From positions 2,851-45,641 of the forward strand of contig PLLC01000059.1 in NCBI GenBank assembly GCA_003141195.1: a DNA stretch of 42,791 nucleotides, written 5' to 3'. The stretch's first letter is position 1. The number at the start of each line of letters is the position of its first letter. Source of the DNA: Syntrophaceae bacterium (GTDB lineage Bacteria; Desulfobacterota; Syntrophia; Syntrophales; UBA5619). A program made the translations under genes and the position numbers. Below are positions 5,513 through 16,011 of this stretch, one piece after another. Under the pieces are notes generated by a model. The model did no database searches. It had not been told where the DNA came from and saw nothing but the letters and a program-made list of their open reading frames with translations.

Positions 5513-6730
5513 TTACCCGATGGTCCCCGATGCCTTCATAGCCTGAATTTCACTTTCAGCATATCCCAACCCCTTCAATATTTCTTCCGAGTGTTCCCCG
5601 AGCTTGGGCGCCGCCATGGTGATTTCTGCCTGGGTTTCAGATAATTTTATAGGATTATTCAATACCTTTATCCGACCATACTCCGGATGATCCCAATCCA
5701 CAAAAAATTCGTTGGCCACGGCCTGCCGATCCCGGGTGACTTCCAGCGGCGACGTCACAGGGGACCACACGATCTTGCTCTGGCTCAGGATCTCGATCCA
5801 TTCGCCGTATGTCCGGCTCCGGAATATCCCGTCGAGAACGTTCACGAGGTCCCCGGCATGCTTGAACCGTACCTCGTACGTGGCAAATTGAGGATCATTT
5901 TCCAGTTCCGGATGGTCAATGGCCTCGCAGAACCCGGGCCAATAATGCTGGGCATTGGTCATCCCCAGCATGATCCAGCGATGATCCCTCGTTTCATAGA
6001 CGTTCCGAATCGGGTTCCCCATGGTTTTGCGCTGGGGCCGCACCGCGTCCTCACCGGTGATCAGACAACCGGCGATATCAAATCCCAAAGTCCATACGGC
6101 AGTATTGTAGAGCGATATTTCCAATTCCTGGGCCACCCCGGTTTTCTCCCGGATATAGAGGGCGGACATGATGCCGGCCAGGAGGCTCATCGCCGTAATA
6201 CTATCGCCATAGCCGGGTCGTGAAATGTTGGGTGCGACGCCCACATCATGCATCAGATCCATGACGCCGCTGCGCGCCCAGAAGGAGACGGTGTCGTAAC
6301 CACCGGTGTTTTTTTCAGGACCGCATTGACCATAGCCTGTGACATTGGCACAGATAATCCGAGGATTGATCTTTGACAGAATCGGATAGGTAAGGTGGAA
6401 CTTCTCCATCTCGTAGGGCCGCAAGTTGTTCAGAAAAACGTCGGCGGTCGCCGCAAGTTTATGCAGGATCTCCTGACCTTCCGGGGCTCCCAGATTCAGA
6501 GCGAGGCTTTTTTTGTTTCGATCGGTATGCTCCCAGTAATAATTGACCGAATTGGGCTTGGCCCATCCGGCCATTCCCTGTCCCAGGGCGTGACGCCAGT
6601 TATCACCCTTGCCGGGCGGTTCAACGTGAATGACCTCGGCGCCCCAGCTTCCCATTAACATCCCAACGATGGGCATGGCAACAGCGCCCCCCACTTCAAT
6701 AACCCTGATTCCCTGCAGTTCTCTGGCCAT
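5513..6730 (-). CDS. Class III (CaiB/BaiF-type) CoA-transferase
   Basis: About 405 residues, full length for family III CoA-transferases, which move CoA between carboxylic acids through an aspartyl-CoA anhydride. The N-terminus GIRVIEVGGAVAMPIVGMLM, with WGAEVIHVEPPGKGD after it, is typical. The conserved NNLRP segment and the active-site aspartate in GGYDTVSFWARSG (D146 counting from 6730) are present. Two ATGs compete, at 6736 and 6730; GGGAGG lies eight bases before the second and only two before the first, so 6730 is preferred. It is the last gene of the operon after the enolase. The acid it activates is unknown; formyl-CoA, carnitine, itaconate/citramalate and benzylsuccinate enzymes all belong to this family. 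Confidence 0.88.
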   Translation of the reverse strand: MARELQGIRVIEVGGAVAMPIVGMLMGSWGAEVIHVEPPGKGDNWRHALGQGMAGWAKPNSVNYYWEHTDRNKKSLALNLGAPEGQEILHKLAATADVFLNNLRPYEMEKFHLTYPILSKINPRIICANVTGYGQCGPEKNTGGYDTVSFWARSGVMDLMHDVGVAPNISRPGYGDSITAMSLLAGIMSALYIREKTGVAQELEISLYNTAVWTLGFDIAGCLITGEDAVRPQRKTMGNPIRNVYETRDHRWIMLGMTNAQHYWPGFCEAIDHPELENDPQFATYEVRFKHAGDLVNVLDGIFRSRTYGEWIEILSQSKIVWSPVTSPLEVTRDRQAVANEFFVDWDHPEYGRIKVLNNPIKLSETQAEITMAAPKLGEHSEEILKGLGYAESEIQAMKASGTIG

Positions 6731-6814
6731 GAACATTACCTCCCATTGATTGAATTTACATGCGCGATCCCATTCATGTTACTTGTCTTATGCCTTCTGC
6801 TATGGCGACGTCTC

Positions 6815-8068
6815 TCACCACTTTATGAGATGGGCCTTTTCGAAAGCCTGCTCTATCCGGATCAGTTCATTCAACTTTGCCAATCTTTCGCCTCCCTTGA
6901 CACCCGTCTTAATCATGAGGGCATTCCAGGCCACAGCCAGATGGGCAATGGAATCATCCGGCGTCTCCCCCGAACGGTGAGAGAGAATGATCTTCATTCC
7001 GTGGGACTGGGCCAGGGAAATCGTCTGTTTTGCCCCCGTGATCGTGCCTACCTGGTTGGGTTTTATAATCATGGCGCCGGCCGAACCCTTCCCGATTCCC
7101 GTTTTTGTCCGCTCATAATTGCTGGCATAAACATCGTCTGCACAGATCAGACATCGGTGGCCAAAATTCCGGTTCAGCAGCGAAAATGAATCGTAATCGT
7201 TGCTGTTGAAACCATCTTCAACATAAATCAAATTGAAGCGTACGATAAGCTCTCCAAGAAAATCCAATTGCCGCTGCGTGGTCCTGGAGGCCCCTTCCCG
7301 GTCATACTTATAAACCTTACCCGCCGGATCCCAGATGCGGTCTGCCGCCAGATCCAATCCCATTCTGATCTCGACACCCTCCTCATCCGAAATCCTGTCC
7401 GCAGCCTCTTCGAGGATCTTCAGAGCCTCAACATCGTTCAGATTTGCAGCCCAGGCATTTTCATCGTCCGTTCCGCCCGCAAATCCAGGATCCTTTCTCT
7501 CAAGCAATTTTCCGACTTGATCGTGAACCCTCAGGTTGATTTCAATCGCCTGCTGGACCGTCTTTGCGCCGATGGGAACAATCAAATGTTCCTGCATGTC
7601 CGGGGCAGGACCGAGACTGTGCGCACCTCCTCCGATAATGTTTCCCAGGGGGTAAGGGAGAGTCCATTCTTCATCCTTACGAAACAATTTGAACATAGGG
7701 ATCTTCAGGGAATCTGCCGCCGCTGTTCCAACCGCGGTCGATAGGATGGCCGCCGTATTGCCGCCGATTTTTTCGAAATTCGGCGTACCGTCGACCTGTA
7801 GCAGTATGTCATCGATTTTTTCCTGTTCTGCTGCATCCATGCCGATGAGCGAGGGAATCAGCGTTTTTTCAAGGATTGCCATGGATTCGCGTAATCCACC
7901 GGGCGCATAGGCCGGCGCTTCAAATTCCCCTCGGCTCCCCGGGGCGCCGAACGGCGCGGCCACCCGTCCAAAGCCCTTTTCAGTGATCACGTCCACTTCC
8001 AGGGTTTCGACCCCCCGGCTGTCATAAACCGTCCGATATCGAATATGAGTAATCGTGGTTTCCGGCAT
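6815..8068 (-). CDS. eno: Enolase family protein with an altered N-terminal loop
   Basis: 417 residues, close to normal enolase length. Residues aligning with the catalytic and magnesium-binding set of enolase are all visible: H150, E160, E203, D239 in GLDLAAD, E284 in YVEDG, D311/D312, K336 in IIKPNQ, HRS at 364-366 in SHRSGETPDD, and K387 in IKTG. The flexible loop that closes over substrate in true enolases (PSGASTG) is replaced by a different sequence (PFGAPGSRGEF, 39-49), and DEGGFAP is replaced by DENAWAA. It may still be phosphopyruvate hydratase, or it may use a related 2-phospho-acid. It sits inside an operon of organic-acid genes, not with glycolytic genes, which favours a special role. 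The start follows the sequence MPETTITHIRYRTVYDSRG, as expected for the family. Confidence 0.82.
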   Translation of the reverse strand: MPETTITHIRYRTVYDSRGVETLEVDVITEKGFGRVAAPFGAPGSRGEFEAPAYAPGGLRESMAILEKTLIPSLIGMDAAEQEKIDDILLQVDGTPNFEKIGGNTAAILSTAVGTAAADSLKIPMFKLFRKDEEWTLPYPLGNIIGGGAHSLGPAPDMQEHLIVPIGAKTVQQAIEINLRVHDQVGKLLERKDPGFAGGTDDENAWAANLNDVEALKILEEAADRISDEEGVEIRMGLDLAADRIWDPAGKVYKYDREGASRTTQRQLDFLGELIVRFNLIYVEDGFNSNDYDSFSLLNRNFGHRCLICADDVYASNYERTKTGIGKGSAGAMIIKPNQVGTITGAKQTISLAQSHGMKIILSHRSGETPDDSIAHLAVAWNALMIKTGVKGGERLAKLNELIRIEQAFEKAHLIKW

Positions 8069-8112
8069 GGATTGTTCGCCTCCGGCAGCGGTTACGTTTA
8101 ATCTTTCGATTC

Positions 8113-8143
8113 CGTGAATTGCATCCTGAAATGCAATTTCACG
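8113..8143 (-). promoter_or_regulatory. Stem-loop between flavoprotein and enolase genes
   Basis: CGTGAATTGCAT (8113-8124) pairs with ATGCAATTTCACG (8131-8143), with one bulged base and a six-base loop. It overlaps the last codons of the flavoprotein gene. No T-run follows on the minus strand, so an mRNA stability or processing element is more likely than a terminator. Confidence 0.4.
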
Positions 8144-9803
8144 AAGACTCCACCGCTTTTATCGAAACGTCTGTTTTTCCGGCCTTGCGTTGGAAAACGA
8201 TGTTCTTCCGCCACTCGTCGCTCATTTCCGGATAATCTTCCCGGTTATGGGAGCCGCGGCTTTCCGTTCTGAGGAGCGCCGCCTGCAGGATCAGCCGCCC
8301 CACAGTATGGATGTTCCGCGTCTCGAAGAGCCCTGCCATCGCACCGAAGGAGCGGTTTTCCAAGATGCAGAGAAGATCGAGCTTCTTTTGCCCGATTTCG
8401 TCCATGACCTTGAGGGCCTTGCGCAGCCCCTCCTCGTTGCGGATGACGCCGGCATAGCGGCTCATCAATTCCGTGATTTCCTTTTTCACCTCGCGGTAAT
8501 CGAACCCATTGTCCCGGTTCCAATGGGCGGCGATGCCCTGCGCGGTCTTCCCGACGATTTCCGGAGAAACGGCGGGCAGGTCGGTGGAGAGGGCTCGTCT
8601 CGACGCCTGCGCCCCCGCTATCGCACCGAAAACCTGCGTTTCCGTGAGGGCGTTTCCGGGCAGGCGGTTGGCGCCCATCGTGCCCGACTGCGCCTCGCCC
8701 GCGGCATACAGTCCTACGACCCCGGTTTCGCAGCGCTCGTTGATGACAATGCCGCCCATGAAATAGTGGGCGCCCGGCGCCCATTCGTAGGACTGCCACG
8801 TGGGATCGAAATTCAAGGAGGCGCAGGCCTGCATGAAGGCCTTGAATTTCATAAGCGTCTCTCTGGGGACGCCGGAGAAGTCTCCGTAAACGCCGCCGTG
8901 GGGGGATGCCCTTCCCTCCAGGATCTCTTTCTGGGTGCATCGGGCGACCTCGGCGCGGGACACCTGTTCCGCCTTGTCGGGATGGTATTTCTTCATGTAG
9001 CGCTCGCACAGGCCGTTGTAGAATCGCCCTCCGATCGTTACACCGCCATCGCCCGGAGGGGGCATGCCCCGCATCGTTTCCGGGCGGATCATGCAGGCCC
9101 GGCTCTGGACAAACTCCATGTCGGACAGTTGCGTCCCCGCTTCATAGGCCAGCGCGCATCCGTCACCCGTGATGCCGGACAGATTGGTCGTCAAAGAAAA
9201 CAAGTTTCCCGCCCCTCCCGTCGCGATCACAACGGATTTGGCCTGAACGATAAGAAGGGTTTCCCGGTCGATTTCCAGCGCTGCCGCGCCGCAGACGGCG
9301 CCTTCTTGCCGCAACAGATCGATCACCATCACGTGCTCGAGGACCTCGATGCCGAGCCGGGCGGCTTCCCGGACCAGCCCCTTGAAGAACCCGCCATTGT
9401 AACGGTCGCCGGCGAGCATTGCCCGGGGCATGGCGTTGCCCGGATAGGGGAATAAGTCATATCGGCCTCCCACCTTGTCGAACGCTGTGCCGTAACGCTC
9501 GACTTCCAGCGCCCGCTCCGGGCCTAAGTCGGCGAGCAACCGGACCAGCTTGGGGTTGTTGAGGTAGTGACCGCCCTTGAGGGTGTCTTCATAATGAGAG
9601 TCTCGACTGTCCTTCTTATCGATGGCCGCAGAGATGGCGCCCATTGCAATGGCCGTAATACAACCCGAGGGGTAGTCGCCCTTGGACACAACGAGGACCT
9701 TGGCGCCCAGGTTGCGGGCCTCGATAGCGGCCCGGATTCCCGCGCCGCCCGCGCCGATGACGAGGACGTCGGTCGAAATCGTCCGCTGTTTCAATGTTTC
9801 CAT
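8139..9803 (-). CDS. FAD-dependent oxidoreductase, fumarate reductase/succinate dehydrogenase flavoprotein type
   Basis: 554 residues from the ATG at 9803, chosen because GGAGGAG lies six bases upstream; the frame stays open 12 codons further but without support. The N-terminus has the FAD dinucleotide-binding motif VLVIGAGGAGIRAA. The middle carries HYFMGGIVINERCETGVVGLYAAGE and GANRLPGNALTETQVFG. The C-terminal domain ends with the usual SRGSHNREDYPEM. These are the marks of the SdhA/FrdA/NadB/AprA family. No iron-sulfur or membrane subunits lie next to it, so it is a soluble lone flavoprotein, or its partner is elsewhere. It lies in an operon with a PrpF-like isomerase, an enolase-family protein and a CoA-transferase, which suggests oxidation or reduction of an unsaturated di- or tricarboxylic acid. 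Confidence 0.87.
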   Translation of the reverse strand: METLKQRTISTDVLVIGAGGAGIRAAIEARNLGAKVLVVSKGDYPSGCITAIAMGAISAAIDKKDSRDSHYEDTLKGGHYLNNPKLVRLLADLGPERALEVERYGTAFDKVGGRYDLFPYPGNAMPRAMLAGDRYNGGFFKGLVREAARLGIEVLEHVMVIDLLRQEGAVCGAAALEIDRETLLIVQAKSVVIATGGAGNLFSLTTNLSGITGDGCALAYEAGTQLSDMEFVQSRACMIRPETMRGMPPPGDGGVTIGGRFYNGLCERYMKKYHPDKAEQVSRAEVARCTQKEILEGRASPHGGVYGDFSGVPRETLMKFKAFMQACASLNFDPTWQSYEWAPGAHYFMGGIVINERCETGVVGLYAAGEAQSGTMGANRLPGNALTETQVFGAIAGAQASRRALSTDLPAVSPEIVGKTAQGIAAHWNRDNGFDYREVKKEITELMSRYAGVIRNEEGLRKALKVMDEIGQKKLDLLCILENRSFGAMAGLFETRNIHTVGRLILQAALLRTESRGSHNREDYPEMSDEWRKNIVFQRKAGKTDVSIKAVESS

Positions 9804-9896
9804 ATCTGCTCCTCCGGGCGGAGTCGGCCCGCCCAACAAGCCTTTACAAAAGGCCCATCCGCTGAGATGACCGCAAGCGCTCGATCCTGCCGCCTA

Positions 9897-11057
9897 TCAT
9901 TTCAGCGTGGACTTGGGAATGTAGGCATACCCTCGAATCAGGCAGCGCGCCGTTCTGTCTACGGTTGCCCTCTTCAGCACAAAGCCGCCCTTTTCCCGGA
10001 CCACCTTTCCCTCGGGGGCGATGACGCCGGCCGAATGGCCGATACGCAGCTCCCCACGCTCCACAATGTCTTTTCGCGCAAGCTGGTTGGCGATCGTGCC
10101 GGGAATCATCGCGGCCGCCACGGTGCATACGGTGCCTGTTACGGGATAGGTCAAGTGCATCTTCTGCATGAACAGCAGTCGTACGACAAGGTCCACCGAC
10201 TTCTCGGGAATCTTCTTGCCCGTTGTCCAGTCATTATAGTCCATTGGGGGGGCGCAGATGGCGAAAAAGGGGCTGTAGGGAACTTCATGGGTCGCCTTCC
10301 GCCAATCCTTGCAGAGGCCCATGACCTGGGCGGAGACGCTGCGGATTTTTTCAATTTTCTGCAGCAGCTTCTTATCGGCGTCGATCTGTTGGGGCGTCTC
10401 GTTGCCTTTGAGGCCCAGGGCCTCTGCCCGGATGAAGACCGTGGGGATCGCGGCGTCCACGAGCGATACCTCGAAAGCGCCTTCCCCTTCGACCTTGATC
10501 GTGTTCGTCACCCTGCCCGTGGGAAGGAGCTTCCCGGTGAGGGATCCCGCGCTGTCCGCCCAGTCCAGGATGATTTTAGCGCCGGTTCCCGGTACGCCGT
10601 CGATTCTGTGCTTGCCCTCCACTGCCGCATGCTTCCCCTTCACGGGGACTTCCGCGACGATTACCTTTCCCGTATTGACCTGGTGGATCCGGACCTTGGT
10701 GATTGGCTCAACGGCTTCTAACAGTCCCTCGTCGATAGCGAAGGGTCCGACGGCTGCGGAGACGTTGCCGCAGTTGGATTTCCAGTCGATCATCGGTTCG
10801 ACCATGCTGACCTGGCCGAAAAGATAGTCCACGTCGCAGTCCGGGCGCGTGGAAGGGCCGATGACCGCCACCTTGCTGGTGAGCAACTCCGCCCCGCCCA
10901 AGCCGTCGATTTCCCGCAGATCGGGGGCGCCGAAGACGCGCATGATTACCTTGTCCCTCAGGGCCTTGTCCTGCGGCAGATCGTTCCGATGAAAAAAAAT
11001 GCCCTTGCTCGTTCCGCCACGCATGATCGTGCAGCGAATTAGTTCCTGGATTTCCAT
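9897..11057 (-). CDS. prpF: PrpF-family isomerase (aconitate/oxalomesaconate type)
   Basis: 386 residues, normal for PrpF proteins, which shift a double bond in methylaconitate, 4-oxalomesaconate or similar acids through two diaminopimelate-epimerase-like halves. The N-terminal signature IRCTIMRGGTSKGIFF (7-22) and the catalytic-type SNCGNVSAAVGPFAI (C96) are present; HLTYPVTGTVCTVAAA lies in the second half. The longer frame to 11213 adds 52 unlikely residues. I take the ATG at 11057 because of the family N-terminus and GGAGG ahead of it. First gene of the four-gene minus-strand operon; the 93-base gap to the flavoprotein is short enough for co-transcription. Confidence 0.86.
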   Translation of the reverse strand: MEIQELIRCTIMRGGTSKGIFFHRNDLPQDKALRDKVIMRVFGAPDLREIDGLGGAELLTSKVAVIGPSTRPDCDVDYLFGQVSMVEPMIDWKSNCGNVSAAVGPFAIDEGLLEAVEPITKVRIHQVNTGKVIVAEVPVKGKHAAVEGKHRIDGVPGTGAKIILDWADSAGSLTGKLLPTGRVTNTIKVEGEGAFEVSLVDAAIPTVFIRAEALGLKGNETPQQIDADKKLLQKIEKIRSVSAQVMGLCKDWRKATHEVPYSPFFAICAPPMDYNDWTTGKKIPEKSVDLVVRLLFMQKMHLTYPVTGTVCTVAAAMIPGTIANQLARKDIVERGELRIGHSAGVIAPEGKVVREKGGFVLKRATVDRTARCLIRGYAYIPKSTLK

Positions 11058-11485: not shown

Positions 11486-11664
11486 AAGCTTGACGATCCC
11501 GTAAAAAGTCTAAAAGTCGCGAAAACGGGACGGATTCGTAAGAAGGCCGCAGGCAAGGCGCGCGAATCCTGAGGAATGCGGCGTACTTTGGCGTACGCCG
11601 CAATGACGAGGGATGAAGCGCAACGCAGCGCAGCATCCGGACTTTTTACGAATCCGTCAAGCTT
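11486..11664. repeat. Miniature inverted-repeat element (copy 2)
   Basis: A 167-bp element (11492-11658) ends in GACGATCCCGTAAAAAGTC on the left and, read from the other strand, GACGGATTCGTAAAAAGTC on the right (15 of 19 identical). AAGCTT flanks it on both sides, extending the inverted repeat to 11486-11664. Inside is a second palindrome around GCGGCGTACTTTGGCGTACGCCGC. The ends match those of copy 1 at 3029-3161, although the inner sequence differs. It encodes nothing and probably moves with a transposase elsewhere in the genome. Confidence 0.75.
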
Positions 11665-11845: not shown

Positions 11846-12349
11846 TTAAAACCCCGGACCGCCAAAGCATCCTGCACCGCCCGACGCCCCGGGACCGAAC
11901 CCGTGCATGGGACCGCGCCCGTGGCCGAAACTGCGACCTTGACCGAAGGATCCAATCTTCTCCTTCTGTTCAGGCGTGAGAACCTTCGCGGCCGCCAGAC
12001 GGAAGGCCGTAATCTTGTCCTCCATCTGATCTCGGAGGGACCGCATCTCCTTCTGGGCCGCCGTGATCTTTGCCTGATCCGGATTCGGTTCCAGCCAGAG
12101 TTTCCGGATCTCATCCCGTTTGGTGAACATCTGTTTTTGAAGGGGTTTCATCTCTTTCCACTGGGCATCCCGGATCTCTTTGATCTTCGCCGTCTGCTCC
12201 GCCGTCAGGTTCAACCCGGCCGGCCCCTGAAAATCGCCCCGCGCGCAGGGACCATAACCCGGACCCCGCCCCCAGCCGAAGGCGAAGGCCGTGGTTGCAA
12301 CCGCCGCCGCAAAGAGCACGGCCATGACTATCAACGTTACTTTCTTCAT
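11846..12349 (-). CDS. ZraP/Spy/CpxP-like periplasmic metal-stress protein
   Basis: 167 residues from the ATG at 12349, which has AGGGAGA seven bases upstream; the frame runs 44 codons further but into the promoter. Residues 1-23 form a signal peptide (MKKVTLIVMAVLFAAA...TAFA) with cleavage after AFA. Residues ~45-130 are the long helical heavy-metal-resistance/Spy domain: LNLTAEQTAKIKEIRDAQW, then MKPLQKQMFTKRDEIRKLW, with a later LTPEQKEKI repeat. The C-terminus is glycine-rich with scattered histidines and a cysteine (GHGRGPMHGFGPG), a plausible metal-binding tail. ZraP is a zinc-binding periplasmic chaperone that damps its own two-component system. The divergent ZraS/ZraR-like pair and the sigma-54 promoter between them fit that role. 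Confidence 0.85.
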   Translation of the reverse strand: MKKVTLIVMAVLFAAAVATTAFAFGWGRGPGYGPCARGDFQGPAGLNLTAEQTAKIKEIRDAQWKEMKPLQKQMFTKRDEIRKLWLEPNPDQAKITAAQKEMRSLRDQMEDKITAFRLAAAKVLTPEQKEKIGSFGQGRSFGHGRGPMHGFGPGASGGAGCFGGPGF

Positions 12350-12442
12350 TTTCGTTCTCCCTAAATTACGTTTTTTATTTTCTATATTTTCCAGCGAAAC
12401 CCGATTTCGGAGGTTCGCGGACTCCATTTTGTCTCTCTTCAG

Positions 12443-12458
12443 AGCAACAGCCATGCCA
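12443..12458 (-). promoter_or_regulatory. Sigma-54 (-24/-12) promoter of the ZraP-like gene
   Basis: On the minus strand TGGCAT-GGCTG-TTGCT (12458-12443) keeps the invariant GG and GC ten bases apart and differs from the consensus at one position. Transcription would start near 12433, 84 bases before the gene. The adjacent response regulator is a sigma-54 activator, which supports the call. Confidence 0.75.
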
Positions 12459-12554
12459 AAATGCATGCAAAATGCTAACATACTGGAATCGTTAATCTAT
12501 ATTGTTTTTCTGCCGAACCGCGCCCCTGACTTCCCCGACCCGTCACAGAAAAAT

Positions 12555-12604
12555 GTGGATCATAAGTATCCACTTGTGGTATCCAGTTGCCTAACAAGTA
12601 TCCA
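12555..12604. promoter_or_regulatory. Likely enhancer sites for the NtrC-type regulator
   Basis: A palindrome GTGGAT-N7-ATCCAC (12555-12573) is followed by further TATCCA copies at 12580 and 12599, the first being at 12567. The cluster lies roughly 110-160 bases upstream of the sigma-54 promoter, the usual distance for binding sites of NtrC-family activators. Confidence 0.5.
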
Positions 12605-12733
12605 GGCACAGGTTATAGAGAAATCCCCGGCCCGCCGCGGGGGCGAGCTTTTCCCTCAACGGCATGGGTTTTTTCCTTCCATCAGTGAAAGAAAACGGGA
12701 ATCTTTCAACACCTGACCGGCGAAGGGAACCGC

Positions 12734-14545
12734 ATGAACGGCAAGCGATACGGAAAGAAACGCGTTTGGGTGATGATCCCGCCTTGGCTGATCATCGGGG
12801 CGGTCGTGATCCTCGTCCCGGTCTTCATCTTCATGACCATCGAGAACATCAACCGGCAGAAGGAACAGACAACGCGCCTCCTCGTGGAGAAGGGGGCGGC
12901 CCTGATCCGTTCCTTTGAGGCGGGCGCCCGGACGGGGCTCGGGCTGCACTGGGGCGGCTTCCAGCTCCAGAAGCTCCTCATGGAGACGGCCGAGCAGCCG
13001 GATATCGACTACCTGATCGTGACCAACACCCGGGGAACGATCCTGGCCGACAGCGACCCCCTGCGGATCGGCGCGATCTACGGCCAGGACCTCGACCTGG
13101 CGAAGATCGCCGGTTCCGAGAAGCTCGCCTGGCGGCAGGCCCCGAACAGCGAAGGGGCGGACACCTTCGAAGTCTATCGCCGGTTTGCACCGACGAGAGA
13201 TCCCCTCCCGGGATTTCCCGACCCGTTCTCGGTGCGATCGCCGCTGGAGGTGCCCCCTCCCGGATCTGCGGGCCCTCCCCCGCCGAGCCCGCCTGCCGCA
13301 TCGGAATCGGATCCGCCGGGCCTGGTCATCTTTGTCGGCCTGAACATGGGACCGATCACGGCGGCCCATGAGGAGGACATCCGCCATACGATCTGGATGG
13401 CCATCCTCTTTCTTCTCATCGGCTGCGCGGGAATCATCTCGCTTCTCCTCGCCCAGGGCTACCGCGCGGCGCGGAGCTCCCTCTCCCGGATTAAGGCCTT
13501 CTCCGACAGCCTCGTGGAGAACATGCCGATCGGCCTTGTTGCCACCGACGCCGGAGGAAGGCTGATCGCTTTCAACCAGACGGCGGAGGCGATTCTCAAA
13601 CGTACCGCCGGGGAGGTCCTCGGGAAGCCGGCGGAGGAGATCCTTCCGGGAAGCTGCCGGGAGCTTTTCCGGACGCTCGCCGCGGAGCGGCGGCTCATCG
13701 AGCGGGAAATCGATTGCGCTGTAGCGGAGGGCCGGACGATCCCACTCGAGGTGATCGCAACGACGCTCCGCGAGGAGGACGGCGCCTTCCTCGGCCACGT
13801 CATCCTCTTCCGGGACATGACGGAGATCCGCCGCCTCGAAGAGGAGGTCGCCCGGAGCCGGCGACTCGCCTCCCTGGGGAGCCTCGCCGCCGGCGTCGCC
13901 CACGAGATCCGGAATCCGCTCAGTTCGATCAAGGGATTCGCCTCCTACTTTCGGGAGCGCTACCGGGACAATCCTGAAGACCGGGAGACGGCGGAGGTGA
14001 TGATCCGCGAGGTGGACCGGCTGAACCGCGTCATCACGCAACTCCTCGAATTCGCGCGGCCGCTGACGATGGACCGCGTCCCGACCCCGCTTCCGGCGGT
14101 GATCCGCCACGCCCTGAAGATGGTCGAAGGCGAGGCCCGCAAAAAGGGGGTCACCCTCGAAACGGACCTCTCTGCGGAGATCGGGGAGGTCCCCCTCGAC
14201 GCCGATCGGATGACCCAGGTTTTCCTGAACCTCTGCCTGAACGCCATCGCGGCAATGGAGGCGGGGGGCGTCCTCCGCGTCTCCCTCGCCCGGCGGGACG
14301 AACGGACCGTCCGAATCACGGTCGCCGATACCGGCATCGGCATCCCCAAAGAGGACCTCCCCCGGGTTTTCGACCCCTATTTCACGACCCGATCATCGGG
14401 AACGGGACTCGGGCTCGCGATCGTCCATAAGATCGTCGAGGCCCACGGCGGCGAGGTCCGTCTGGAGAGCGAACCCGGCAGAGGCACGACGGCGACCATC
14501 CTCCTGCCGAAAAAAACGGAAGTCGAAAAGGTGATCCATTCATGA
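12734..14545 (+). CDS. ZraS/AtoS-like membrane sensor histidine kinase with PAS domain
   Basis: 603 residues. The first membrane segment is at ~12-36 and the second at ~219-240. Between them is a periplasmic sensor region of about 180 residues that ends in a proline-rich insert (173-195). A PAS domain follows (~258-365, starting SLVENMPIGLVATDAGG), then the dimerisation domain with phosphoacceptor H390 in GVAHEIRNPLSSIKG. The ATPase domain has N503 in the N box, DTGIGIP at 532-538 and GTGLGLAIV at 556-564. It should autophosphorylate in response to an envelope signal, likely metal, and pass phosphate to the regulator encoded next, whose start overlaps its stop (ATGA). The ATG follows GAAGGGAA. 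Confidence 0.9.
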   Translation: MNGKRYGKKRVWVMIPPWLIIGAVVILVPVFIFMTIENINRQKEQTTRLLVEKGAALIRSFEAGARTGLGLHWGGFQLQKLLMETAEQPDIDYLIVTNTRGTILADSDPLRIGAIYGQDLDLAKIAGSEKLAWRQAPNSEGADTFEVYRRFAPTRDPLPGFPDPFSVRSPLEVPPPGSAGPPPPSPPAASESDPPGLVIFVGLNMGPITAAHEEDIRHTIWMAILFLLIGCAGIISLLLAQGYRAARSSLSRIKAFSDSLVENMPIGLVATDAGGRLIAFNQTAEAILKRTAGEVLGKPAEEILPGSCRELFRTLAAERRLIEREIDCAVAEGRTIPLEVIATTLREEDGAFLGHVILFRDMTEIRRLEEEVARSRRLASLGSLAAGVAHEIRNPLSSIKGFASYFRERYRDNPEDRETAEVMIREVDRLNRVITQLLEFARPLTMDRVPTPLPAVIRHALKMVEGEARKKGVTLETDLSAEIGEVPLDADRMTQVFLNLCLNAIAAMEAGGVLRVSLARRDERTVRITVADTGIGIPKEDLPRVFDPYFTTRSSGTGLGLAIVHKIVEAHGGEVRLESEPGRGTTATILLPKKTEVEKVIHS

Positions 14546-16011
14546 AGGCAAAAAATTCGATTCTCGTGGCGGATGACGACCGCGCCCACCGGACGATGCT
14601 CCGGACGCTCCTTTCGGGCTGGGGGTACGCGATCACGGAGGCCGACGACGGCGGGAGCGCCGTCGCGGCGGTGCAGAGTCGGCCCTTCGACCTGATCCTG
14701 ATGGACATCCGGATGATCAAGGTTTCGGGCCTCGCGGCGCTTGCCGAGATCAAGGCTTTCAACCCGGCGATTCCCGTCGTCATCATGACGGCCTACGCAT
14801 CCGTGGAGACGGCCGTGGAGGCGCTCAAGAAGGGGGCCTACGACTACCTGACCAAGCCGCTCGATTTCGACGAACTCCGCCTCACCCTGGAGCGGGCGAT
14901 GGAGCACAGCCGCTTGAAGGAGGAGAACCGCCTCCTGAAGGAGAGCCTGGGCGATCGCTTCGACCGGCGGAACCTGATCGGACGCTCCGACGCCATGACC
15001 CGGCTCCTGGACACCGCGTCCCAGGTCGCCCCCTCTGAGGCGACGGTCCTCGTCACCGGCGAGTCGGGGACGGGCAAGGAGATGATCGCGGGGCTCATCC
15101 ACTTCAACAGCCTCCGGAAGGAGCGCCCCTTTATTAAATTCAACTGCGCAGCGATCGCTGAGACCCTTCTGGAATCGGAACTCTTCGGCCACGAAAGGGG
15201 GGCCTTCACCGGGGCCGACCGGCGGAAGGAGGGGAAGTTCCGCCAGGCCGACGGGGGAAGCCTCTTTCTGGACGAAGTGAGCGAGATGTCCCTCGGGATG
15301 CAGGTGAAACTCCTCCGCGTCCTCCAGGAGCGGGAGATCACCCGCGTCGGCGGCGAGGAAGTGATCAAAATCGATGTCCGCCTCATCGCCGCGACGAACC
15401 GGGACCTCCTGAAGGAGATCACGGCCGGGCGCTTCCGCGAGGACCTCTTCTACCGGCTGAATGTCGTCACGCTCCGCGTCCCGCCGCTCCGGGAGAGGAT
15501 TGAGGACATTCCGCTTCTGTCCCAGGATTTCCTCGCCCGCTTCGCCGAAAAGAACCATAAGACGATCAAGGGGTTCACCCCGCAGGCGATGGATCGGCTG
15601 CTCCGCCACCCCTGGCCCGGAAACGTCCGGGAACTGATGAATGCCGTGGAGCGCGGGGTTGTCCTCTCTCAGGGGGAGTACCTCGACGAGGCGGAGCTGG
15701 CCCTTCTCCCGCCGGAGAAAGCCTCCGCGGCGGCGCCGGAAGCTCTCCCACCACCCGCCGCAACGGTCGGGACGACGTCCGCTCCGTGGAATGCGGCCAC
15801 TGCTATGACGATTCCGGGCGGCGCGGCGGCGATCGGGAAAGCCGAAACAGCCACCCCCGGCGCTGAGACCGCCTCCCTCGAGGAGGTGGAGCGGGAGACG
15901 ATCCTCCGGACGCTCACCGCCAGCGGCGGCAACAAGAGCGAGGCCGCCCGCCGCCTCGGCATCACCCGCCGGACCCTTCATCAAAAGCTCCGAAAATACG
16001 GGATGATGTAA
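14542..16011 (+). CDS. ZraR/NtrC-family sigma-54-dependent response regulator
   Basis: 489 residues with three domains. Receiver (1-~125): DDD at 11-13, phosphoacceptor D55 in LILMDIRM, and K107-region KPLD. AAA+ sigma-54 activation domain (~145-380): Walker A GESGTGKE, the sigma-54-contacting GAFTGAD loop, Walker B GSLFLDEV, and the arginine-finger region ending WPGNVRELMN. A loosely conserved Ala/Pro-rich linker (~400-450) precedes a Fis-type helix-turn-helix (NKSEAARRLGITRRTLHQKL). It overlaps the kinase gene by four bases, so the two are translationally coupled. The expected target is the sigma-54 promoter upstream of the divergent ZraP-like gene. Confidence 0.92.
   Translation: MKAKNSILVADDDRAHRTMLRTLLSGWGYAITEADDGGSAVAAVQSRPFDLILMDIRMIKVSGLAALAEIKAFNPAIPVVIMTAYASVETAVEALKKGAYDYLTKPLDFDELRLTLERAMEHSRLKEENRLLKESLGDRFDRRNLIGRSDAMTRLLDTASQVAPSEATVLVTGESGTGKEMIAGLIHFNSLRKERPFIKFNCAAIAETLLESELFGHERGAFTGADRRKEGKFRQADGGSLFLDEVSEMSLGMQVKLLRVLQEREITRVGGEEVIKIDVRLIAATNRDLLKEITAGRFREDLFYRLNVVTLRVPPLRERIEDIPLLSQDFLARFAEKNHKTIKGFTPQAMDRLLRHPWPGNVRELMNAVERGVVLSQGEYLDEAELALLPPEKASAAAPEALPPPAATVGTTSAPWNAATAMTIPGGAAAIGKAETATPGAETASLEEVERETILRTLTASGGNKSEAARRLGITRRTLHQKLRKYGMM

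Follow-up and report, generated by a model that had tools for sequence, protein, structure and literature searches.

A variant enolase in a four-gene operon

We describe a four-gene operon in a 42,791-nucleotide stretch of DNA from a Syntrophaceae bacterium (assembly GCA_003141195.1, contig PLLC01000059.1, positions 2,851 to 45,641 of the forward strand; the whole stretch is hereafter the window), in which an enolase with remodelled closing loops lies among genes for a PrpF-like isomerase, a flavoprotein and a CoA-transferase. This enolase belongs to a subfamily whose substrate has very probably changed, and its catabolic surroundings are in part familiar. We somewhat favour the view that the operon breaks down a branched C5–C6 dicarboxylate as free acids, with the variant enolase serving as the Mg-dependent hydro-lyase of the route. 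The gene set, its constraint, the enolase subfamily, the loop change, the second enolase of the same genomes and the recurring neighbours are all read from the sequences themselves.

Four complete open reading frames (ORFs) on the minus strand fill positions 5513–11057 exactly. In order of transcription they encode a PrpF/3-methylitaconate-isomerase-like delta-isomerase of 386 amino acids (9897–11057, ATG at 11057; Pfam PrpF 415 bits), a FrdA/TfrA-like flavin adenine dinucleotide (FAD) protein of 554 amino acids (8139–9803; FAD_binding_2 195 bits), the variant enolase of 417 amino acids (6815–8068; Enolase_C 187.8 bits with a cut-off of 21.5, Enolase_N 97 bits) and, as the final gene, a family III (CaiB/BaiF) CoA-transferase of 407 amino acids (5513–6736; CoA_transf_3, PF02515, 350 bits with a cut-off of 23.3); all four Pfam scores lie far over their cut-offs. 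The intergenic gaps are, in the same order, 93, 70 and 78 bases, which agrees with the earlier note's description of four closely spaced genes on one strand, and a purine-rich stretch resembling a ribosome-binding site precedes every start. The same four genes occur in the same order in a sister species (G002, Zod_Metabat.836, contig JAFGRP010000091.1), where the proteins are 85–92% identical to those of the window and the flanking genes differ. Because the ratio of nonsynonymous to synonymous substitution rates (dN/dS) between the two species is 0.10–0.17 for the four genes, these are real genes under purifying selection.

Residues, loops and predicted fold of the enolase

Residues E160, E203, D239, E284, D311, K336, H364 and K387 of the window enolase align with the catalytic and metal-binding residues of solved enolases; in yeast numbering, we take the kept equivalents to be the Lys345/Glu211 catalytic pair, Glu168, His159, the metal ligands, Arg374/Ser375 and Lys396. 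What has changed are the closing loops. Loop 1 does not match the enolase pattern [SA]GASTG and instead reads FGAPGSRG (residues 40–47; 7928–7951, minus strand), two residues longer than SGASTG, through an insertion and the replacement of Thr by Arg (SGA-STG to FGA-PG-SRG). All seven bacterial variants that we found carry FGAPGSRG and the archaeal one LGAPGSRG, so that GAPGSRG is present in 8/8 variants and 0/71 other enolases, every one of the 71 having GASTG; these controls, like those of the tree and neighbour comparisons below, come mostly from the window's own phylum, and the alignment behind the count of 71 leaves out L091, L116, L119 and L122 (read separately), L092–L094 (which repeat variants) and L063/L064 (which duplicate the two halobacterial rows). 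Loop 2 (GGGAHSLGPAPDMQEHL, residues 146–162; 7583–7633, minus strand) holds the His159 and Glu168 equivalents and is one residue longer than usual, and the seven full-length variants, the window's included, share both this longer loop and a DDE[NDR]AW motif. The alignment thus upholds the claim of the earlier note that the catalytic residues are kept while a closing loop is replaced, and adds that the new loop 1 is nearly invariant within the subfamily.

An AlphaFold model of the window enolase (predicted local distance difference test score, pLDDT, 78.5; predicted template modelling score, pTM, 0.84) has the enolase fold and superposes on Mycobacterium tuberculosis enolase bound to 2-phosphoglycerate (2-PG; 7clk) with a Z score of 42.9 and a root-mean-square deviation of 2.3 over 396 residues at 34% identity. 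Its pLDDT drops below 50 at residues 42–56 and 147–157, as well as at 99–101 and 366–369. Since the low confidence falls just at the two closing loops, the predicted structure says nothing about the substrate.

A second enolase, and the distribution of the subfamily

The window copy is not the only enolase of its genome: a standard one on contig C10 scores 441 bits with PF00113, compared with 189 for the window copy. The earlier note had asked for such a gene, and one of standard type occurs in all seven bacterial variant genomes, in one of them (G536) as a contig-end fragment only (122/296 positions, loop GASTG). The archaeal genome (G944) has a separate enolase C-terminal fragment adjoining a gene read from sequence as rpS2. 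Both Rhodospirillaceae variant genomes carry a third enolase paralog as well (L116 in G536, L119 in G535), in which the loop is GASRGS and SARSGE replaces SHRSGE.

Variants were sought by scanning the genome collection with two peptide patterns, APDMQEH and DDENAWA, which matched 106 stretches and yielded nine related loci, two of them ordinary enolases. Variants with neither pattern are missed by such a scan, which also accounts in part for the uniformity of loop 2 and DDE-AW, but not for that of loop 1, which was no search pattern. Altogether the variant enolase was found in eight genomes, from the window's deltaproteobacterial genus, Bacillota, Pseudomonadota, Myxococcota, Chloroflexota and one archaeal metagenome-assembled genome (MAG). 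Identity to the window enolase is 70% in Desulfofundulus thermobenzoicus DSM 14055 (L084:10001-11257), 61 and 60% in two Rhodospirillaceae MAGs, 60% in a deltaproteobacterial MAG (which the tree tool assigns to Myxococcota), 57% in a Dehalococcoidia MAG and 47% over 198 residues in the archaeal MAG (Methanocellales, L091).

A tree of 78 rows, built by a quick method and without L091, groups the seven full-length variants as one clade with a Shimodaira–Hasegawa-like approximate likelihood-ratio (SH-aLRT) support of 100, beside two halobacterial enolases (SH-aLRT 100) and far from 69 bacterial ones. Members of different phyla are intermixed inside the clade, which suggests horizontal transfer of the variant enolase. 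Wide conservation in the window's own lineage was considered and rejected: only 2/155 genomes of the order (the window genome and its sister species) and 1/395 genomes of a phylum sample contain a variant-level enolase. Searches of the classes of L088 (1/294) and L084 (1/113) returned only the variants already found, and none was found on the viral contigs searched. Plasmids held no close kin, the best matches being haloarchaeal enolases at 43–45% identity, one belonging to an rpoK-eno-rpsB ribosomal locus and another adjoining pyruvate kinase.

Partners of the enolase within the operon

The window PrpF protein, which has the SK and NCGN motifs, is closest among solved structures to 3-methylitaconate isomerase (Mii; 3g7k, 389 bits), followed by a relative at 272 bits and PrpF itself (2pvz) at 268, and it scores below the cut-offs for 2-methylaconitate isomerase (TIGR02334, 308 vs 440.55) and oxalomesaconate tautomerase (NF033377, 345 vs 440). 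For this reason aconitate and tricarballylate, two of the acids named in the earlier note, are not favoured over acids of the itaconate/citraconate type, which include its third candidate. 3-Methylitaconate isomerase also acts on itaconate (PMC4720413).

The FAD protein is below the curated cut-offs for TfrA (450 vs 718) and for SdhA/FrdA (sdhA_frdA, 332 vs 567), and no iron-sulfur subunit gene lies beside it. Where FrdA has QFHPTG, the window reads QSRAC and its L088 ortholog QSRVC, so that the His of QxHPTG, presumably a substrate-site residue of FrdA, is lacking. We also considered loss of the FrdA base arginine and rejected it, as the alignment retains an Arg at that position (SR-EVA) and places the change on the HPTG side alone. 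With one carboxylate side of the substrate site apparently kept, if we assign the retained FrdA residues correctly, and QSRAC in place of QFHPTG, the substrate is probably not plain succinate. The CoA-transferase has the GYDTV motif, whose Asp we take to be catalytic in family III enzymes; its nearest solved relative is succinate-hydroxymethylglutarate CoA-transferase (9br6, 168 bits), and it scores below the equivalog cut-offs for formyl-CoA (217 vs 504), mesaconate (148 vs 700) and glutarate (173 vs 750) transferases.

Neighbourhoods of variant enolases

Relatives of PrpF, the FAD protein, the CoA-transferase, MmgE/PrpD or lactonases lie within 1.5 kb of the enolase at five of the seven variant loci and at none of 68 standard loci, which offered one weak SucD match only; as the queries were picked from variant loci, the comparison measures recurrence and is not blind. 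PrpF is adjacent to the variant enolase, or one gene away, in four of seven genomes (the window's, G002, L084 and L088), and a FrdA-type FAD protein accompanies the enolase in the window, G002 and L088, the L088 protein being 58% identical to that of the window. Elsewhere partial sets appear (PrpF with FAD protein and enolase, PrpF with enolase, FAD protein with an iron-sulfur protein and enolase, MmgE with enolase), and PrpF, FAD protein and enolase come together again in Chloroflexota. Conservation of the operon, which the earlier note proposed to survey, therefore holds for subsets of the genes, while the intact set was seen in the window genome and the sister species only. Similarly, its suggestion of isomerization, redox, hydration and CoA chemistry on di- or tricarboxylic acids is supported insofar as the neighbours point to branched di- or tricarboxylates, but not by any wide occurrence of the four genes together.

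An extensive row is that of D. thermobenzoicus, which runs from LeuC- and LeuD-like genes through a PrpB/petal-death-type lyase to the variant enolase, then PrpF and a metallo-lactonase (L084:12541-13299; HxHxDH), with a transporter and aconitase X after the lactonase and with aconitase and PrpR-type regulators (PrpR_N) in the same neighbourhood. The contig further carries a second PrpB-like lyase, a short citrate-synthase-like protein, SucC/SucD, MmgE/PrpD, fumarase and FAD genes. At L087, two acyl-CoA ligases, a lactonase-type protein and the enolase are followed by an MmgE/PrpD protein 57% identical to that of G002, and at L086 a CoA-transferase and a CitE relative lie 3–5 kb from the variant enolase. 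At the archaeal locus (L091:1-3609), a TfrA-like and a TfrB-like ORF, a pair of the classical fumarate-reductase kind, lie directly upstream of the variant enolase, with a 15-base gap between the TfrB-like ORF and the enolase.

Directly upstream of the operon in G002 are SucC-, SucD- and CitE/RipC-like genes, and farther up come carbamoyltransferases, a corrinoid system, TctABC, hydantoinase, PreA/PreT-like and MmgE/PrpD genes. The window genome has its own CitE relative (66–67% identical to that of G002) on contig C30, together with a succinate-dehydrogenase-like set and MmgE/PrpD. Another CitE relative (L110, G000:C65:22866-23314; 59% identity) lies at the end of a contig, fragmented and with in-frame stops, and is perhaps a decaying copy. 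Separately, a cluster in G002 (L067:1-19503, G002:C171) with PreA/PreT-like, hydantoinase, three carbamoyltransferase (one in L033) and amino-acid-kinase genes, adjoining genes for corrinoid methyltransferases, resembles an island for the degradation of ureides or N-heterocycles. Its MtmB-family methyltransferase (L067:5318-6712; 283 bits) apparently does not use pyrrolysine, because the 464-amino-acid frame has no in-frame stop.

Upstream of the operon in the window, positions 11486–11664 hold a short interspersed element with inverted repeats, resembling a miniature inverted-repeat transposable element, which has 44 matches in its own genome (73–100% identity). Next, at 11846–16011, the minus strand encodes a ZraP/CpxP-like periplasmic protein, and adjoining plus-strand genes encode a ZraS-like kinase and a sigma-54 response regulator of the ZraR kind. 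No structured RNA was found in the window.

A possible pathway and its alternatives

Every reaction and every substrate of the pathway that follows is inferred from gene content and chemistry. Enolase converts HOCH2-CH(X)-COO- to CH2=C(X)-COO-, X being OPO3 in the conversion of 2-PG to phosphoenolpyruvate (PEP). The variant would keep the proton abstraction and beta-hydroxyl elimination of this reaction, and its larger, remodelled closing loops could take a carboxylate-bearing side chain at the place of the phosphate. With X as CH2COO-, 2-(hydroxymethyl)succinate would give itaconate, a substrate of the Mii type, the two acids being isosteres of 2-PG and PEP. That this single reaction, or its methyl homologue leading to 3-methylitaconate, is the one catalysed is a tentative suggestion, though the likeliest for a single reaction. 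The PrpF/Mii-like protein might then turn an acid of the itaconate type into one of the citraconate type by moving the double bond, and the FrdA-like flavoprotein might oxidize or reduce the same carbon skeleton. The CoA-transferase would activate the acid so that a CitE-type lyase can cleave it; the sister species encodes such a lyase next to the operon, and the window genome does so at a separate site. Since hydroxymethyl diacids cyclize to gamma-lactones, such a substrate would also account for the lactonase genes of two lineages. The D. thermobenzoicus row of lactonase, enolase, isomerase, LeuC/LeuD-like hydratase and lyase could accordingly make up a complete path from lactone to pyruvate and an acid, the window route differing at its end by CoA transfer and CitE-type cleavage. 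It is possible, if doubtful in its full breadth, that the subfamily as a whole, in bacteria and at least one archaeon, consists of dehydratases that turn 2-(hydroxymethyl)dicarboxylates, carba-analogues of 2-PG, into itaconate-type 2-methylene acids, and so links a lactonase to a methylitaconate-type isomerase in an undescribed degradation pathway of the paraconate/itamalate type.

Several observations weigh against a hydroxymethyl-acid dehydratase. Two of the seven variant genomes, both MAGs, have no PrpF match, the neighbour set varies by lineage, and the window operon has no lactonase. The archaeal fumarate-reductase-like pair fits an acid of the malate/fumarate type better, and it is the strongest point for a fumarase analogue on the enolase fold, which would work with the FrdA-like enzyme and hydrate citraconate or mesaconate to methylmalate, or fumarate to malate. 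The flavoproteins of the window, G002 and L088 and the CitE lyase of the sister species fit this as well; we nevertheless think it unlikely, given that the step would be duplicated in D. thermobenzoicus by the LeuC/LeuD-like hydratase of the row and the fumarase genes of the contig, and that, on mechanistic grounds, a beta-carbon carboxylate would have to sit by two glutamates. The PrpR, PrpB-like, MmgE and citrate-synthase-like genes of the D. thermobenzoicus contig also suit a methylcitrate route, where the variant, beside PrpF and a PrpB-like lyase, would replace AcnB/AcnD in hydrating (2-methyl)aconitate; the PrpF family membership and the TctABC genes of G002 point the same way. That proposal looks weaker still to us, with a PrpF protein nearer to Mii than to PrpF and below the PrpF cut-off, aconitase and LeuC/LeuD-like genes already on that contig, and a window operon that lacks methylcitrate synthase.

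The enolase itself also supplies counter-evidence. HRSG, which we take to be the phosphate-binding residues of ordinary enolases, is kept in five of the seven bacterial variants (in both Rhodospirillaceae variants it is replaced by NRSG, with Asn at the His373 equivalent), and the window protein passes the NCBI enolase equivalog cut-off (TIGR01060, 370 bits vs 300), leaving a phosphorylated substrate possible. Together with the full set of catalytic residues and the close fold match to the 2-PG-bound enzyme, this could mean that the variant still acts on 2-PG, or on a close phospho- or phosphonate analogue, and is carried along with catabolic genes. We give that little credence, as every variant genome has another enolase, loop 1 is altered in all variants and the neighbours are not glycolytic. 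The earlier note's proposal of a substrate other than 2-PG is thus favoured by the second enolase and the replaced loops, and tempered by the mostly retained HRSG and the TIGR01060 score. Finally, the genes might share a mobile catabolic island rather than a pathway, as their occurrence in 2/155 genomes of the order and the different surroundings in window and G002 would allow. This we regard as improbable: four-gene order and close spacing persist in two species with different flanks, PrpF, FAD protein and enolase reunite in Chloroflexota, and no control locus has such neighbours.

Comparison with known systems

As the subfamily passes the automatic enolase cut-off, its members would be named phosphopyruvate hydratase, and a catabolic step could hide in annotation. 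If the variant does act on a dicarboxylate that bears no phosphate, enolase proper would illustrate how substrate choice can be governed by two mobile loops with the chemistry preserved, and branched dicarboxylates such as relatives of itaconate, which are fungal and immune metabolites, would have an additional free-acid route. The 70%-identical enolase of cultured D. thermobenzoicus DSM 14055 makes this reading testable; its genome paper lists propionate, lactate, pyruvate, benzoate and fumarate as growth substrates and does not mention these genes (PMC6965587). Among the papers found in the open-licence PMC literature, none described an enolase outside glycolysis with partners of this kind; PMC9875883 deals with short-chain branched dicarboxylates in Pseudomonas, and PMC5690661 with PrpF.

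Among known systems, the halobacterial-type enolase (EC 4.2.1.11) is like the variant in fold, catalytic residues, the DE-AW and GGER-AKLNELIRI motifs and sequence (43–46% identity to haloarchaeal enolases), but the window variant has two more residues and Arg for Thr in loop 1, one more residue in loop 2, catabolic neighbours and a second enolase in its genome. Carboxyphosphonoenolpyruvate synthase of phosphinothricin biosynthesis is likewise an enolase homologue recruited to another substrate, there in phosphonate biosynthesis, whereas the neighbours of the variant are acid catabolism genes. The AcnD-PrpF 2-methylcitrate cycle also places a PrpF-family isomerase beside a hydro-lyase; here the hydro-lyase is an enolase, not an aconitase, and the isomerase is below the PrpF cut-off. 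From nicotinate fermentation (Mii, DmdAB, dimethylmalate lyase), the window operon has a relative of the isomerase only, its PrpF being nearest Mii, and D. thermobenzoicus has relatives of all parts of the lower pathway (Mii, LeuC/LeuD-like, PrpB/dimethylmalate-lyase-like); that pathway presumably uses other dehydratases where variant loci have the enolase, and methyleneglutarate mutase was not met in variant loci, though no search for one was made. A further comparison is with the itaconate/methylsuccinate cluster (ict, ich, ccl, mcd, mmgE), which includes CoA activation, citramalyl-CoA lyase and MmgE/PrpD and for which a hydroxyparaconate lactonase is proposed (PMC12290011). CoA activation, a CitE/RipC-like lyase and MmgE/PrpD recur around the variant, but a free-acid isomerase, a flavoprotein and the enolase here take the place of itaconyl-CoA hydratase and acyl-CoA dehydrogenase.

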